NCBI GenBank assembly: GCA_905233445.1
Contig: CAJOEP010000001.1
Span: 62,001 to 126,000, forward strand
Origin: an uncultured Bacteroidales bacterium
GTDB taxonomy: Bacteria > Bacteroidota > Bacteroidia > Bacteroidales > F082
Length of the DNA stretch: 64,000 nucleotides
Direction: 5' to 3'
Shown: positions 2,911 through 37,458 of the stretch, in pieces
How the letters are laid out: each line of letters begins with the position of its first letter
How positions within the stretch are numbered: position 1 is the stretch's first letter
Translations under genes and position numbers: made by a program
The notes under the pieces: model-generated
What the model was told of the DNA's origin: nothing
Database searches by the model: none
The model's input: the letters and a program-made list of their open reading frames with translations, nothing else

Positions 2911-3825
2911 TTATTGCTGGCGGTAAGAATTTGGAGTGCATCCTGTGTGCGACTTGAAATATTTATAGAAAAACGATTGGTTCGGAAAGTTTAGCTGGTC
3001 TGCTATCTCCTTGACACTCATGTCAGTATGACGCAGAAGATGCTGAGCCTCGAGTATCACATATTTATTAATAATGTCAGGAGCTGAGAACCCACTCACA
3101 TTTTTGATAATTTGCGACAGATATTTTGACGAGATGCACAGTTTGTCGGCGTAGAAGCCCATCGAACGCTCTTTGCTGTGATGTTTCTCGACAAGTTCTA
3201 TAAACATCTCAAACATTCTTTTCTGTCGAGTGGAGGTCGGCCTTTCGTCGTTTTCCTCGACGGCGTGAAGGCGTTTCATGAGCATCCCGCCAATGAGATA
3301 AAAAATGGAGGTTAGAAGATAACTGATGCTATCGTCGCGATACTCTGAGTCTGTATTTATAACATTATCAATGAGTTTGAAGTATTGCATCGAGAGCTCA
3401 ACTTCTTCGGGAGCCATTTCCATAATTGGGCTTTTAAGCATATTGATGGCATCCACAAATATTTTGTCGAGGTCGGAGCTGAGCTTGTTCATGTATTGTG
3501 GCGAGACGGCTAGAATTGTCAGTTCTACGATTTCCTTGTTAGGATCGACAGTTTCCAACTGTATGATATTGTTGGGGGTATTAATCGCCAACATGCCGTC
3601 GTGAATCTCATATTCATTAAGGTTTATGATGCATTTCAGGTGGCCTCTACGGCAATATGCGGCGACATAACCCTCGATGCGGCTGGGGAACTTAAGTAGT
3701 CCCAAATCAACGTTGTTGGTTTGGCGCGCGAGGATAAAATCATCGCCAATGCTGATGATATCGTCCTTCAGAAACAGTTCCCTCACTTTCGAAAGAGTAA
3801 ATTTGTTATATGACTTATTGTCCAT
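2911..3825 (-). CDS. AraC family transcriptional regulator
   Basis: C-terminal HTH: SMGFYADKLCISSKYLSQIIKNVSG...IADQLNFPNQSFFYKYFKSHTGCTPNSYR. Confidence 0.92.
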   Translation of the reverse strand: MDNKSYNKFTLSKVRELFLKDDIISIGDDFILARQTNNVDLGLLKFPSRIEGYVAAYCRRGHLKCIINLNEYEIHDGMLAINTPNNIIQLETVDPNKEIVELTILAVSPQYMNKLSSDLDKIFVDAINMLKSPIMEMAPEEVELSMQYFKLIDNVINTDSEYRDDSISYLLTSIFYLIGGMLMKRLHAVEENDERPTSTRQKRMFEMFIELVEKHHSKERSMGFYADKLCISSKYLSQIIKNVSGFSAPDIINKYVILEAQHLLRHTDMSVKEIADQLNFPNQSFFYKYFKSHTGCTPNSYRQQ

Positions 3826-14385: not shown

Positions 14386-14448
14386 ATTAGGTATTAGCTA
14401 TTAGCCATTAGCTATTAGCCATTAGCTATTAGCCATTAGCAATTAGTC
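14386..14448. repeat. Heptanucleotide tandem array, nine units, (ATTAGCY)n
   Basis: ATTAGGT ATTAGCT ATTAGCC ATTAGCT ATTAGCC ATTAGCT ATTAGCC ATTAGCA ATTAGTC. Confidence 0.95.
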
Positions 14449-14463
14449 AGAAGTCATAAAACT

Positions 14464-19590: not shown

Positions 19591-19604
19591 AATTTTTAAT
19601 CTTT

Positions 19605-19624
19605 AGACGGTCGGCCGACCGTCT
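19605..19624. repeat. 20-nt perfect palindrome AGACGGTCGGCCGACCGTCT
   Basis: Direct inspection; related element at 53382-53407. Confidence 0.9.
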
Positions 19625-19657
19625 CTACTCTTTACTCTCTACTCTTTACTCTTTACT
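19623..19657. repeat. Heptamer tandem array, five units CTYTACT
   Basis: CTCTACT CTTTACT CTCTACT CTTTACT CTTTACT, ending at the TlpA-like gene stop codon. Confidence 0.92.
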
Positions 19658-22443: not shown

Positions 22444-22488
22444 TGTCATTCCGAACGAGTTGTCATTCCGAACGAAGTGAGGAATCTC
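22444..22488. repeat. GTCATTCCGAACGA(A)GTGAGGAATCTC dispersed repeat with partial duplication
   Basis: TTGTCATTCCGAACGA occurs twice in tandem; related copy in murF-alr at 27854-27882. Confidence 0.85.
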
Positions 22489-22506
22489 ATATAATTAAGC
22501 AGAAAT

Positions 22507-26514: not shown

Positions 26515-29121
26515 ATGCTAAAAGATGGTTATACAATAAAACGAATTGCTTCAGTTGTTGATGGTCAAGTGATTGGAAATCAATTAGATGATATAATTAT
26601 TGAGAATATTCTTTTCGACAGCCGTCAGCTTATTGATGCGGAAAATACGTTGTTTTTTGCGCTTTACACTGCACGCAACGACGGACATAAATATATCGCC
26701 GAACTGTATGAAAAAGGCGTCAAAACGTTTGTAATCAACAGAGATTATGTTGAAAACTACGTAAAGACTCGATACATTGCGTCTCTTCCATGTCCCGATG
26801 CGACGTATATCGTCGTAAAGGACACCCTTTCCGCTTTGCAAAAATTGGCGGCCTATCATCGTGCGCAGTTCGATATTCCTGTGGTCGGAATCACCGGGAG
26901 CAACGGCAAAACGGTGGTGAAGGAATGGCTCTATCAGATTTTGTCGCCCTCGATGTCGGTTTGCCGCAGCCCAAAGAGCTACAACTCGCAAATCGGCGTG
27001 CCGCTGTCGGTCTGGCAGATGAATTCCACCCACGACGTAGCGTTATTCGAAGCGGGTATCTCTCAGCCTGGCGAGATGGAAAAGCTGCGCGAGATCATCA
27101 AGCCGACGATAGGCGTTTTCACCAATATAGGCGCCGCCCACGGCAAGAATTTTGAGAATATTCAGCAGAAAATCGAGGAAAAACTGAAACTCTTTAAGGG
27201 CTTTAAAGACCTTAAGAGCAGCGGCAGCATTAACGGCCTTAACGCCATTAATGGCATTAATGCCCTTAAGGCAGCCGCAGTGGTGTATTGCTCTGATAAT
27301 CAAGAAATTGCGAATGCAATTTCAGCCAATAGCGTTCCAGCTTTTTCCTGGAGCAAAACCGATAAAACCGCCGATTTGTATATTTCCTCGGTTGATTGTA
27401 GAGACGCACGGCCGTACGTCTCTACGGAAATAATCGCGGTTTTCAAAGGCAAAAAAATCGCCATCACAATCCCTTTCATTGACAATGCCTCCATTGAAAA
27501 CGCCATCAACTGCTGGTGTGTGGCGCTCTTGCTGGGTCTCCCGAACGAGACAATCGCTGAGCGTATGGCACATCTTGAGACCGTAGAGATGCGAATGGAA
27601 CTCAAGGCTGGTGTTCGTAATTGTCTGATAATCAACGATTCATACAACAACGACAGAAATGCCCTCGCCATCGCCCTCGACTTCATGAACGCACAGCATC
27701 ACGATAACAAGGTGCTGATACTTTCTGACATCCTTCAAAGCGAACAGAAAGAAGAAGACCTCTACAAAAATATTGCACAACTCATTGAAAATAAAGGCGT
27801 TGACATATTCATCGGCATCGGAGAAGCTATCTGCCGAAACATGCAAAAACGCCTGTCATTCCGAGCGCAGCGAGGAACCTCATATTATTATCCGACAACC
27901 TCCGATTTCCTCGCCAACCACCCGATGAAACTATTTGAAAATCAAATAGTTCTGTTGAAAGGTGCGCGTAGCTTCGAGTTCGAGCGCATCATGAAGGTGC
28001 TGCAGCAGAAATCGCATGAGACAGTGCTCGAAATCAACCTCGACAACCTCGTTAAAAACCTTAACTATTATCGCGGAAAACTTAAAAAAGACACCAAGAT
28101 GATGGTGATGGTGAAGGCTTTTGCATACGGCAGCGGCAATTATGAGGTTTCGAACGTTCTTGCATTCCATCATGTTGATTATCTTACAGTTGCGTATGCC
28201 GACGAAGGCGTTGAGCTACGCAACAAAGGCATAAAACTGCCAATCATGGTGATGACACCGGAGACGAACACATTCGATACAATAATCCTCAACAATCTGG
28301 AGCCGGACATTTACAGTTTCCGTTGCCTGTCGCAGCTGGAAGACGCTATAAATCAATTGGATAAGCCTCTTGAGAAGCCTGTCGGAATCCATATCAAAGT
28401 CGATACCGGCATGCATCGTCTAGGTTTCCTTCCGGAAGATATCAATGCATTGATTGAACATATAAAAGCTAATCCGAATCTCCGAATCATGAGTGTTTTC
28501 TCGCATTTTGCGACGAGCGACATGCCTGAGGAGGACGATTTCGTGATGCATCAGGTCGCGATGTACGAGATGATGAGCCAAAAGATTGTGGCGGCATTCC
28601 CATACAAGATTATTCGCCACCTTTTGAATACCGCCGGCATTACACGATTCACTGAGTATCAATATGATATGGTGCGTTTAGGCATCGGCGTCTATGGAGT
28701 TGCAATCTGCGACGAAGATCGCGGAAAGCTTAACAATGTGATGTCGCTGAAGACCACCATCAAGCAGATCAAGGAATATGGACCTGGCGAGACAATAGGT
28801 TACGGTCGTCACGGCAAGATAACGAAACCATCGAAAATAGCAGTGATTCCTATAGGTTACGCCGATGGCTTGCGTCGTCAGCTGGGCAACGGCAAAGCCT
28901 GTTTCTGGGTCAATGGCAAGTCGGCACCTATCATCGGAAACATCTGCATGGACCTCACGATGATAGACGTAACCGGCATCGACTGTCAAGAAGACGACAC
29001 CGCGGTATTATTCGACGACAACCATCCTATTGAAATCATAGCGGAAGCCTGCGACACGATTCCATACGAAATCATGACGCGAATTTCACAAAGGGTAAAG
29101 AGAATTTACGTGAAGGAATAA
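26515..29121 (+). CDS. murF-alr: Bifunctional MurF ligase / alanine racemase
   Basis: MurF GITGSNGKTVVKEWLYQIL; Alr MVMVKAFAYGSGNYEV, HIKVDTGMHRLGF, VRLGIGVYG. Confidence 0.95.
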   Translation: MLKDGYTIKRIASVVDGQVIGNQLDDIIIENILFDSRQLIDAENTLFFALYTARNDGHKYIAELYEKGVKTFVINRDYVENYVKTRYIASLPCPDATYIVVKDTLSALQKLAAYHRAQFDIPVVGITGSNGKTVVKEWLYQILSPSMSVCRSPKSYNSQIGVPLSVWQMNSTHDVALFEAGISQPGEMEKLREIIKPTIGVFTNIGAAHGKNFENIQQKIEEKLKLFKGFKDLKSSGSINGLNAINGINALKAAAVVYCSDNQEIANAISANSVPAFSWSKTDKTADLYISSVDCRDARPYVSTEIIAVFKGKKIAITIPFIDNASIENAINCWCVALLLGLPNETIAERMAHLETVEMRMELKAGVRNCLIINDSYNNDRNALAIALDFMNAQHHDNKVLILSDILQSEQKEEDLYKNIAQLIENKGVDIFIGIGEAICRNMQKRLSFRAQRGTSYYYPTTSDFLANHPMKLFENQIVLLKGARSFEFERIMKVLQQKSHETVLEINLDNLVKNLNYYRGKLKKDTKMMVMVKAFAYGSGNYEVSNVLAFHHVDYLTVAYADEGVELRNKGIKLPIMVMTPETNTFDTIILNNLEPDIYSFRCLSQLEDAINQLDKPLEKPVGIHIKVDTGMHRLGFLPEDINALIEHIKANPNLRIMSVFSHFATSDMPEEDDFVMHQVAMYEMMSQKIVAAFPYKIIRHLLNTAGITRFTEYQYDMVRLGIGVYGVAICDEDRGKLNNVMSLKTTIKQIKEYGPGETIGYGRHGKITKPSKIAVIPIGYADGLRRQLGNGKACFWVNGKSAPIIGNICMDLTMIDVTGIDCQEDDTAVLFDDNHPIEIIAEACDTIPYEIMTRISQRVKRIYVKE
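27221..27280. repeat. 60-nt repeat copy in frame within murF-alr
   Basis: GCGGCAGCATTAACGGCCTTAACGCCATTAATGGCATTAATGCCCTTAAGGCAGCCGCAG aligns without gaps to 2090-2149 (about 50/60 by eye). Confidence 0.85.
27398..27425. repeat. 28-nt palindrome GTAGAGACGCACGGCCGTACGTCTCTAC in frame within murF-alr
   Basis: One base different from the copies at 29127-29153 and 36203-36230. Confidence 0.95.
27854..27882. repeat. TGTCATTCCGAGCGCAGCGAGGAACCTCA repeat in frame within murF-alr
   Basis: Matches the GTCATTCCGAACGAAGTGAGGAATCTCA element at 22461-22488. Confidence 0.88.
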
Positions 29122-29157
29122 AAATGTAGAGACGCACGGCCGTGCGTCTCTACATTT
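29122..29157. terminator. Palindromic repeat / bidirectional terminator AAATGTAGAGACGCACGG-CCGTGCGTCTCTACATTT
   Basis: Perfect palindrome between convergent genes; same family as the murF-alr and pyrC insertions. Confidence 0.9.
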
Positions 29158-29162
29158 TATCA

Positions 29163-30221
29163 TTAAATCTTTTTCAATAATATCAAATAAACCGGGAAGT
29201 GGTCTGAATATCCTGCCAGCCACACTCCACCTGCAAATGAACGCCACGGATATCCTCTGTAGCGGCCGTCATGCTGCTTCAAAAACTCCTTGGAATGTAC
29301 CATCGGCTTGAGCATCTGATATGTCGCAAACGGAGCATTTTCGTCTTTAAGCAATGCTGGTGTGATGATGCATTGGTCGAGCACGCCTTTCACATCGCGG
29401 TAGTAGTTGGTGCCTTCGCCGTTTTTGTGCATCTTCCACATCGGGTTGAAGAAGTCGTCCCCCTGCATGTCCTCGACACGGCCTTTGGCGCGGAGTCCCT
29501 CGATGATACTTTTGTTTGTTGGATAGTCATTGTAGTCGCCCATCATCACGATTTTTGCATCTGGTTTTTCTGCTAGAATCGAGTCGGCGATATGGCGGCA
29601 GAGGCTTGCGGCAGCCATACGTCCGGGAAGTGAGCGTTTCTCACCACCGTAACGTGAAGGCCAGTGCATCACGATGAAACTCATCTCCTCGTCGTCGAGG
29701 ATACCTGTCACCACAAGCTGGTCGCGGGAGATGAAGTTATGCTGGTTAGGAACAACCAAACGATATGATTTATGATTGGTGACCTTGAAATATTTCGGGT
29801 TGTAAAGCAACGCCACGTCAACACCACGGCGGTCAGGCGAGTCGTAATGCACAATCTGGTAGTTGCGGTTTGCAATTTCAGGCTGTTTCACCAGGTCTTC
29901 AAGCACGTGGCGGTTCTCGATTTCCGAGACACCAAGCACCCAAAGGCCTTCCGGGGTGTTGAACTTGTCGCTTTTGTCGGTGCCTATCGTCGAGATGGCG
30001 TAAGCCATATTGTGAAGCTTTGTGATGTATTTCTCGGAGTTCCAGGCGTTCTTGCCCTGAGGCAGGAATTCCTCGTCGTTTTTCGCAGGGTCGTTAATCG
30101 TATCGTAAAGATTTTCAAGGTTATAGAATCCTACGAGACCCATTTTGTACTGCTGCTGGGCGTTCAATGAGGTGATGACAAACAGCATCACGACGGCTAA
30201 AAGATTAAATTTTCTCAACAT
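29163..30221 (-). CDS. Endonuclease/exonuclease/phosphatase family protein, exported
   Basis: Signal peptide; VGFYNLENLYDT, GVSEIENRHVLEDL, IVMMGDYNDYPTNKS, GYSDHFPVYL. Confidence 0.92.
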   Translation of the reverse strand: MLRKFNLLAVVMLFVITSLNAQQQYKMGLVGFYNLENLYDTINDPAKNDEEFLPQGKNAWNSEKYITKLHNMAYAISTIGTDKSDKFNTPEGLWVLGVSEIENRHVLEDLVKQPEIANRNYQIVHYDSPDRRGVDVALLYNPKYFKVTNHKSYRLVVPNQHNFISRDQLVVTGILDDEEMSFIVMHWPSRYGGEKRSLPGRMAAASLCRHIADSILAEKPDAKIVMMGDYNDYPTNKSIIEGLRAKGRVEDMQGDDFFNPMWKMHKNGEGTNYYRDVKGVLDQCIITPALLKDENAPFATYQMLKPMVHSKEFLKQHDGRYRGYPWRSFAGGVWLAGYSDHFPVYLILLKKI

Positions 30222-35365: not shown

Positions 35366-36103
35366 ATGGCAGAAAACTTAGTAATCATCCCGACGTATAA
35401 CGAGAAAGAGAATATCGAGAAAATAATCCGATATGTCTTCAATCTCCCGATGGCTTTTGATATCCTGGTTGTCGAGGACAACAGTCCCGACGGCACAGCC
35501 GACATCGTGAAGCGCCTCATGCAGGAGTTCCCCGACAGGCTTTTCATCGAGGAAAGAAAAGGCAAGCTGGGTCTCGGCACGGCTTACATCCATGGTTTCA
35601 AGTGGGCGTTACAGCGTGACTATCAATATATTACGGAGATGGATGCTGATTTTTCACATAACCCTGACGACCTTATCCGTCTGCATGACGCCTGCGCCAA
35701 CGGCGCTGACTTGGCTGTCGGTTCGCGCTACAAATGCGGCGTGAACGTGGTCAACTGGCCGATGGGACGCGTTTTGATGTCGTATTACGCCTCGGCATAC
35801 GTCCGCTTTGTGACGAGGATGAAGGTGCGCGACACCACCGCAGGCTTCGTGTGCTACACACGTAAAGTGTTGGAAACCATCGACTTCGACAGAATTAAGT
35901 TCATTGGATACGCTTTCCAAATTGAGATGAAATACACAGCTTGGAAGCTCGGATTCAAGATTGAGGAAGTCTCGATTATCTTCACCGACCGAAAGGAAGG
36001 CACATCAAAGATGTCGGGCGGAATCTTCAGGGAAGCCGTGTTCGGCGTCATCAACTTGAGATGGAGAGGAATGTGGGGTAAAATCAAACCAAGAAAGAAG
36101 TAA
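35366..36103 (+). CDS. Polyprenol monophosphomannose synthase-like glycosyltransferase
   Basis: LVIIPTYNEKENIEKIIRYVF, VVEDNSPDGTADIVK, MDADFSHNPDDL. Confidence 0.95.
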   Translation: MAENLVIIPTYNEKENIEKIIRYVFNLPMAFDILVVEDNSPDGTADIVKRLMQEFPDRLFIEERKGKLGLGTAYIHGFKWALQRDYQYITEMDADFSHNPDDLIRLHDACANGADLAVGSRYKCGVNVVNWPMGRVLMSYYASAYVRFVTRMKVRDTTAGFVCYTRKVLETIDFDRIKFIGYAFQIEMKYTAWKLGFKIEEVSIIFTDRKEGTSKMSGGIFREAVFGVINLRWRGMWGKIKPRKK

Positions 36104-37458
36104 TGAATTACATCATTAAAAACGCGACACTTGTCAACGAGGGAACGACCACGCTGGCAAGTGTCGTCATTTCTGACGGCAAGATCGCACAAATATTGCC
36201 GGGTAGAGACGCACGGCCGTGCGTCTCTACAGGGACAATTATTGATGCTACGGGCCTGTATCTAATCCCGGGCATCATCGACGAGCACGTGCATTTCCGT
36301 GAACCGGGACTGACACAGAAAGCCGACATCTTCACTGAGAGTAGGGCAGCCGTTGCAGGTGGCGTGACATCGTTTATGGACATGCCGAATACCAATCCGC
36401 AGACCACTACAAATGAGCTGTTGCAACAGAAATTCGACCTTGCGGCACAGAAATCGGCGGCGAATTACTCGTTTTATATGGGCGCAACAAACGAAAACAT
36501 CGACGAGATAAAGAAAGTTGACCCGAAAAAGGTTTGCGGCATCAAGTTGTTTATGGGCTCAAGCACTGGAAACATGCTTGTGAACGACAACGACATGCTT
36601 GTGCGCATCTTCAACGAGTCGCCGTGCCTGATTGCAGCACATTGCGAGGACGAGCAGATAATTCACGAAAACACGGTCTGCTGCAAGGATTTGGAGTCGA
36701 AAGACGCGGTGGTAGTAGATGCGAGCATTCATCCTTTTATCCGCACGACAGAAGCTTGCTACAAATCGACAGCGAAAGCGGTTTATATGGCTGCGAAGTT
36801 TGGCGCGAGATTGCATGTGATGCATATCTCGACGAAGTCGGAGCTGACATTGTTTAGAAATGATATTGCATTGAAAGACAAGAAGATAACAGCGGAGACA
36901 TGTCCGCATTACCTTACTTTCTGCGACAAGGATTACGAAGAAAAAAGCTATGCCATAAAGTGCAATCCGGCGATAAAAATGGCATCTGACCGTGATATTT
37001 TGCGCAAAGCCATCGTTGATGGACATATTGACACCATTGGAACCGACCACGCGCCGCATCTTTGGCACGAGAAATTTACGGACGATTATTTCACGGCAAA
37101 ATCAGGCTTTCCGTCGATACAGAACAGCCTCGATGTGATGCTCAATCTCTATCATCAGGGTGTGATTTCGTTGGAACAAATCGTGAAGCTGATGTGCCAT
37201 AATCCTGCTGAGTTGTATCAAATCAAGGGTAGAGGCTTTATTCGCGAAGGCTATTATGCCGACTTGGTACTTGTCGATTTGAATCATGAAAAAGTGATTA
37301 AAAACGACGATATGCTTTACAAATGCGGCTGGACTCCATACGACGGTATGAATGTGAAATCGCGTGTGACGCATACTTTTGTGAACGGAAAACTCGTTTA
37401 TCACGATGGTATCGTTGAAGAAAATATTATTGGAAAACCTTTGGAATTTGATCGGTAA
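36103..37458 (+). CDS. pyrC: Dihydroorotase
   Basis: PGIIDEHVHFREPGLTQKADIFTESRAAVAGGVTSFMDMPNTNPQT; DTIGTDHAPHL. Confidence 0.95.
   Translation: MNYIIKNATLVNEGTTTLASVVISDGKIAQILPGRDARPCVSTGTIIDATGLYLIPGIIDEHVHFREPGLTQKADIFTESRAAVAGGVTSFMDMPNTNPQTTTNELLQQKFDLAAQKSAANYSFYMGATNENIDEIKKVDPKKVCGIKLFMGSSTGNMLVNDNDMLVRIFNESPCLIAAHCEDEQIIHENTVCCKDLESKDAVVVDASIHPFIRTTEACYKSTAKAVYMAAKFGARLHVMHISTKSELTLFRNDIALKDKKITAETCPHYLTFCDKDYEEKSYAIKCNPAIKMASDRDILRKAIVDGHIDTIGTDHAPHLWHEKFTDDYFTAKSGFPSIQNSLDVMLNLYHQGVISLEQIVKLMCHNPAELYQIKGRGFIREGYYADLVLVDLNHEKVIKNDDMLYKCGWTPYDGMNVKSRVTHTFVNGKLVYHDGIVEENIIGKPLEFDR
36203..36230. repeat. 28-nt perfect palindrome GTAGAGACGCACGGCCGTGCGTCTCTAC in frame within pyrC
   Basis: Identical core to the intergenic copy at 29127-29153. 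Confidence 0.96.

Follow-up and report, generated by a model that had tools for sequence, protein, structure and literature searches.

In-frame coding palindromes with fixed arms and variable cores in pyrC and other conserved genes of Bacteroidota

How does a perfect 28-bp palindrome come to lie in frame inside a gene as conserved as pyrC, and how do such elements enter, persist and change? The best-known examples of palindromes read in frame within genes come from Rickettsia. The window analysed here, a 64-kb stretch of DNA, holds the pyrC palindrome together with several related sequences, listed below with their host genes.

19601..19628, no strand assigned: related spacer palindrome CTTTAGACGGTCGGCCGACCGTCTCTAC, whose core is different and whose left end is degenerate
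26515..29121, + strand: murF-alr fusion gene, 868 aa, host of the second coding copy
27398..27425, no strand assigned: murF-alr copy GTAGAGACGCACGGCCGTACGTCTCTAC, with one core mismatch, reading CRDARPYVST
29126..29153, no strand assigned: perfect copy in the spacer between the convergent genes murF-alr and 29163-30221
36103..37458, + strand: pyrC, dihydroorotase, 451 aa, host gene; the element encodes residues 34-43
36203..36230, no strand assigned: 28-bp perfect palindrome GTAGAGACGCACGGCCGTGCGTCTCTAC, with arms GTAGAGACG and CGTCTCTAC and core CACGGCCGTG, in frame in pyrC

The palindrome is real: its exact position and its reading in pyrC, GRDARPCVST, were verified as given in the earlier note, and the reading proposed there for the murF-alr copy is likewise correct, in a copy that carries one core mismatch. 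A perfect palindrome of 28 bp is expected by chance about 0.0002 times per 64 kb, and the window contains three copies of the 22-bp centre (one with one mismatch), versus none in shuffled sequence. Other repeats lie in the same stretch. A 59-nt imperfect palindromic repeat, with copies 85% alike, occupies 27220-27278, within murF-alr and just upstream of its 28-bp palindrome, and 2089-2147; a TGTCATTCCGAACGAAGTGAGGAATCT-type repeat, which represents another dispersed family, is present at 22461-22497 and at 27854-27890, the latter inside murF-alr; and the spacer at 14386-14455 contains a 14-nt tandem repeat, ATTAGCCATTAGCT.

Across the genome that contains the window (G000, a draft of 2.47 Mb and 88% completeness), the 22-bp centre has 24 copies at ≤3 mismatches, compared with none for the reversed control. 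A looser pattern, AGACG and CGTCT separated by 4-24 bases, matches 105 places versus 41 for its control, and at many of the places listed the core is 10 bp long and self-complementary, for example TTTCCTGAAA, ATGTGCACAT, CGCCATGGCA and GTCGGCCGAC. Our census of this genome covers these 24 copies and, from the family at large, a sample of 40 elements. The pattern TAGAGACG-N10-CGTCTCTA occurs in at least 118 stretches of GTDB genomes; the matches listed are mostly from Bacteroidota and Cyanobacteria, with single ones in Spirochaetes, Chloroflexi, Planctomycetes, Methylococcales, Cloacimonadota and others. Among 89 matches, in which the pattern left the core free, the core forms on average 4.48 of 5 possible base pairs versus 1.25 expected, and the bases directly outside the pattern are G in 80/89 and C in 81/89 cases (∼90%). 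The family design is thus a pair of fixed 9-bp arms (GTAGAGACG...CGTCTCTAC) around a variable, self-complementary 10-bp core. The idea that the palindrome generally extends in inverted form into its flanks was set aside, there being a few striking cases and no overall excess. A literature search for the arm sequence found no relevant paper. Seven stretches from six IMG/VR viral contigs also contain the exact 28-bp palindrome, so viruses might carry it from host to host.

The element encodes no protein of its own, and each genome holds dozens of copies, most of them in conserved genes. Within G000, 26 of the 40 sampled elements lie inside ORFs of ≥250 aa, one of them being an edge case located where its ORF begins. 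Host genes, whose names (such as recD, glgA and malQ) are interpretations of Pfam matches, include those for a glycogen synthase-like protein, a U32 peptidase, a 4-alpha-glucanotransferase, a dihydrouridine synthase, a PrmC-like methyltransferase, an M20 peptidase, a RecD-like helicase, MurF-Alr and PyrC. The earlier note took the common frame of the pyrC and murF-alr copies as a sign that the RDARPCVST frame is preferred. Both copies do use that frame, and the census refutes the preference: long ORFs of G000 read 13 elements as VETxxxxxSL and 12 as RDxxxxVST, and a sample from other genomes has more elements in the VET frame (16:4). With two usable frames, the agreement between the two genes is a coincidence of two cases, explained by there being only two open frames and by frame inheritance at sites that were occupied before several species split. 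The third frame, which contains TAG, is unused in the sampled long ORFs of G000, except in the edge case, where the end of the element is changed. If the three frames were equally likely, finding 0/25 elements in the stop frame would have a probability of 4e-5.

Residues 34-43 of PyrC form a coil between predicted strands at 27-33 and 45-48, in a model that is weak overall (mean pLDDT 48) and reaches 71-85 around the element. The best PDB match, 2gwn, is a dihydroorotase whose alignment spans the loop with one gap, so the element occupies a loop already present in PyrC. This location, together with the variation of the loop among orthologues, bears out the proposal that the palindrome sits where related dihydroorotases have a variable loop. 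Orthologues of pyrC were found in 75 of the 80 relatives searched. Of the 12 genomes in the closest clade, seven (including G000) hold a same-arm element at the identical position, G039 has an eroded-looking copy, and the element is absent from G017, G035, G043 and G041; in more distant congeners the loop carries another palindromic family, CCCTGAGCCCGTCGAAGGG, or unrelated residues. The pyrC element is not a fresh insertion: the same place is occupied in 7/12 species, and the frame is inherited. The element-free pyrC loop of G017 contains an inverted repeat of 43 bp, GCATCGGCAAAATCATTTTTGGAAAAAATGATTTTGCCGATGC, with a right arm that seems to be a copy of upstream coding DNA.

Could the element have been kept in pyrC for a function of its own, with the peptide or an RNA hairpin selected as a regulator of translation or as an interaction motif? 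Strong hairpins are indeed over-represented at the loop, in 8/30 orthologues versus 2/570 other gene windows. The same scan disposes of a hairpin conserved at the loop in every species, as strong hairpins are missing there from many orthologues; in addition, the peptide sequence is not conserved, other species have unrelated residues, and the same element is found in unrelated genes and in two frames. We therefore regard a selected function in PyrC as very improbable.

The cores at this single pyrC position differ among species. G000 and G011 have CACGGCCGTG, G026, G046, G015 and G005 have CGATTAATCG-like cores, and G032 has CGCCATGGCA, which is also the commonest core of that genome (9 of 31 listed). 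The cores CACGGCCGTG, CGATTAATCA, CGATCAATCG and CGCCATGGCA at one position represent at least three unrelated core types. G011 and G032 have in common a right-arm variant, CGTCTTTAC followed by AAATTATGATGT, under unrelated cores, so the arm is of common descent and the core is a replacement. The present core of the window's pyrC probably replaced an older one, perhaps a CGATTAATCG-like core. The U32 peptidase gene and a transglutaminase-like gene also show unrelated cores at a single position, in the latter gene at 4/4 multi-species sites.

We extended this comparison to 79 species pairs, drawn from seven multi-species coding sites and a two-species glgA-like site. Mean identity was 0.57 for cores, 0.78 for flanks and 0.88 for arms, the last value being inflated because elements were chosen by arm similarity. 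Core identity was bimodal, with 41 pairs at 0.7-1.0, 38 at 0.1-0.4 and none between, a pattern expected from wholesale replacement and not from gradual drift. These alignments show that position, frame and arms persist at orthologous coding sites and that the core is swapped as a whole. Compensatory gradual change occurs as well, as in murF-alr, where G000 and G046 have CACGGCCGTA and G011 has the fully paired AACGGCCGTT. In malQ, G000, G032 and G011, which are not sisters in the tree, have in common the variant GAGAGGCAC...GTGCCTCTC together with its flanks; gene-segment exchange between species seems to take place and may be the source of some core differences.

Element-free orthologous sites bear on how copies are gained. 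The recD-like gene is filled in G000, G026 and G046, with 15 nt more than in five other genomes, and the methyltransferase gene is filled in G000, G032 and G011, again with 15 nt more. Elements found in G000 only add 12 nt in the glycosyltransferase gene and 18 to 21 nt in dus. The M20 gene holds a pair of elements in G000 alone, absent in 11 relatives, at a gain of about 60 to 63 nt, and the site in the relatives reads GGCGACGTT, resembling the GGAGACGTT of the element itself. These unequal net gains (12, 15, 15, 18-21 and ∼60 nt) exclude insertion of a fixed length, including a net insertion of 30 nt (28 plus T/A), which had been a candidate. They agree with the earlier suggestion that gain involves replacement of host DNA, and the aligned sites show that new coding copies replace a short stretch of host DNA, with a length change that is a multiple of three. 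Empty sites in relatives had also been anticipated; they exist, and neither a constant target duplication nor a constant net length was seen at them. At one spacer site, comparison of G005 with G026 shows AATAAT...ATTATT, which suggests an inverted copy of a flank.

Different cores at one site might instead stem from recurrent independent insertion at a preferred target, with loss between insertions, or from exchange of gene segments between species, with no conversion of cores. Several observations favor such histories. The loops of PyrC, U32 peptidase, PrmC, MalQ and an APH-RapZ protein hold unrelated palindromic families in other species; presence departs from the species tree, the recD-like gene being filled in the three genomes named above and not in G035; and the filled recD-like, methyltransferase and malQ copies have common flank haplotypes. 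With short internodes in the tree and, in some genes, haplotypes common to non-sister species, exchange of gene segments could place different cores at one site. Recurrent insertion is opposed by positions identical to the base, by flank-linked arm variants kept under different cores, and by the lack of both a constant target duplication and a fixed net length. On balance, we consider these histories rather unlikely as the explanation in place of core conversion. Unrelated palindromic families in the same loops of sister species include CCCTGAGCCCGTCGAAGGG, CGTCATTTCGACTGGAGC...GGAGATTTCTCGACT, GTAGGGGCGAATCATCATTCGCCC and GGGACAAGGCATGCCTTGTCCC, and the PrmC loop is different in nearly all species.

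A dedicated enzyme is another candidate. Under this explanation, the element would be a canonical REP moved by a RAYT, a Y1 tyrosine transposase that recognizes the terminal GTAG and the hairpin. The element does start with GTAG and forms a hairpin of REP size (PMC3733652), and G000 has two Y1_Tnp genes. Both genes are flanked by other repeats, and the nearest element lies ∼1.3 kb away, beyond another gene. Eight of 12 relatives gave no Y1_Tnp match, several of these genomes being incomplete; among the eight are G005, G046 and G032, with 72, 43 and 31 places that match the arm pattern, and the 99%-complete G015. The element-bearing loci, 586 kb in all, contain no RAYT-like ORF, and the ten Y1 loci of relatives have no palindrome of this kind beside them. 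It is possible that a RAYT acts from elsewhere in the genome or has since been lost, and overall we hold RAYT-driven movement to be improbable. The two Y1 genes of G000, at L018 ∼3326-3670 and L028 ∼2595-2936, have flanking repeats of their own (GTTGCCCCTTCGGGGCGC and CGTGCCTCCGGCACG) and are possible RAYT-REP systems of other families.

We lean towards a different explanation, in which the element is a coding palindrome of the REP or RPE (Rickettsia palindromic element) kind, housed in permissive protein loops, with one copy acquiring the core of another through conversion or template switching. A hairpin formed on single-stranded DNA would switch template to another copy, or be repaired from it, through the shared 9-bp arms, and such events could both spread copies and exchange their cores. 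Selection would then eliminate frameshifting insertions, those read in the TAG frame and those that strike structured parts of the protein, and the surviving copies would be those in surface loops, residues 34-43 of PyrC among them. Neither an intermediate of template switching nor a donor tract was seen. A more specific version, which we put forward tentatively, is that the fixed arms serve as docking sites and the palindromic core as a cassette converted between copies with no dedicated transposase, so that loops of conserved enzymes might be rewritten species by species. Within one genus, the same loops can be compared across many species in filled, refilled and element-free states, making entry, persistence and exchange directly testable, and a fixed-arm, variable-core design common to Bacteroidota and Cyanobacteria calls for an arm-recognizing agent or repair process.

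Members of the GTAG-tagged REP superfamily are short palindromic repeats with a terminal GTAG, present in many copies, single or paired, and some of them are intragenic (Di Nocera et al. 2013, PMC3733652). The present family resembles them as a 20-40 bp palindrome in many copies (here 28 bp and 24 close copies). It departs from them in that its GTAG is paired with CTAC in most matches, leaving no unpaired tag at one end, in that ORFs of ≥250 aa harbor 26/40 sampled copies whereas GTAG REPs are mainly extragenic, and in having no RAYT link; it is set apart from the 24 REP families by description, not by sequence. The same paper describes coding palindromes in Rickettsia and, in several phyla, REPs that lie within genes (PMC3733652). 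As characterized there, RPEs are likewise in-frame palindromes in ORFs of unrelated, probably functional proteins; our elements differ, in a comparison by description only, by their 28-bp length, their occurrence in Bacteroidota and their fixed arms with exchangeable cores (PMC3733652). REPINs are paired inverted REPs (PMC3116915), and the M20 gene of G000 does hold two close elements, whereas most copies here are single. Unlike MITEs, the elements show no target-site duplication of constant length in comparison with element-free sites, where net changes are 12, 15 and 18-21 nt. The small dispersed repeats of cyanobacteria described by Elhai et al. in 2008 are reportedly very small. Our family is likened to them by description, on account of that size, and GTAGAGACG arms occur in many cyanobacterial genomes. 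Although the family fails three REP features, namely the unpaired tag, extragenic placement and RAYT association, it works like the coding palindromes and intragenic REPs.
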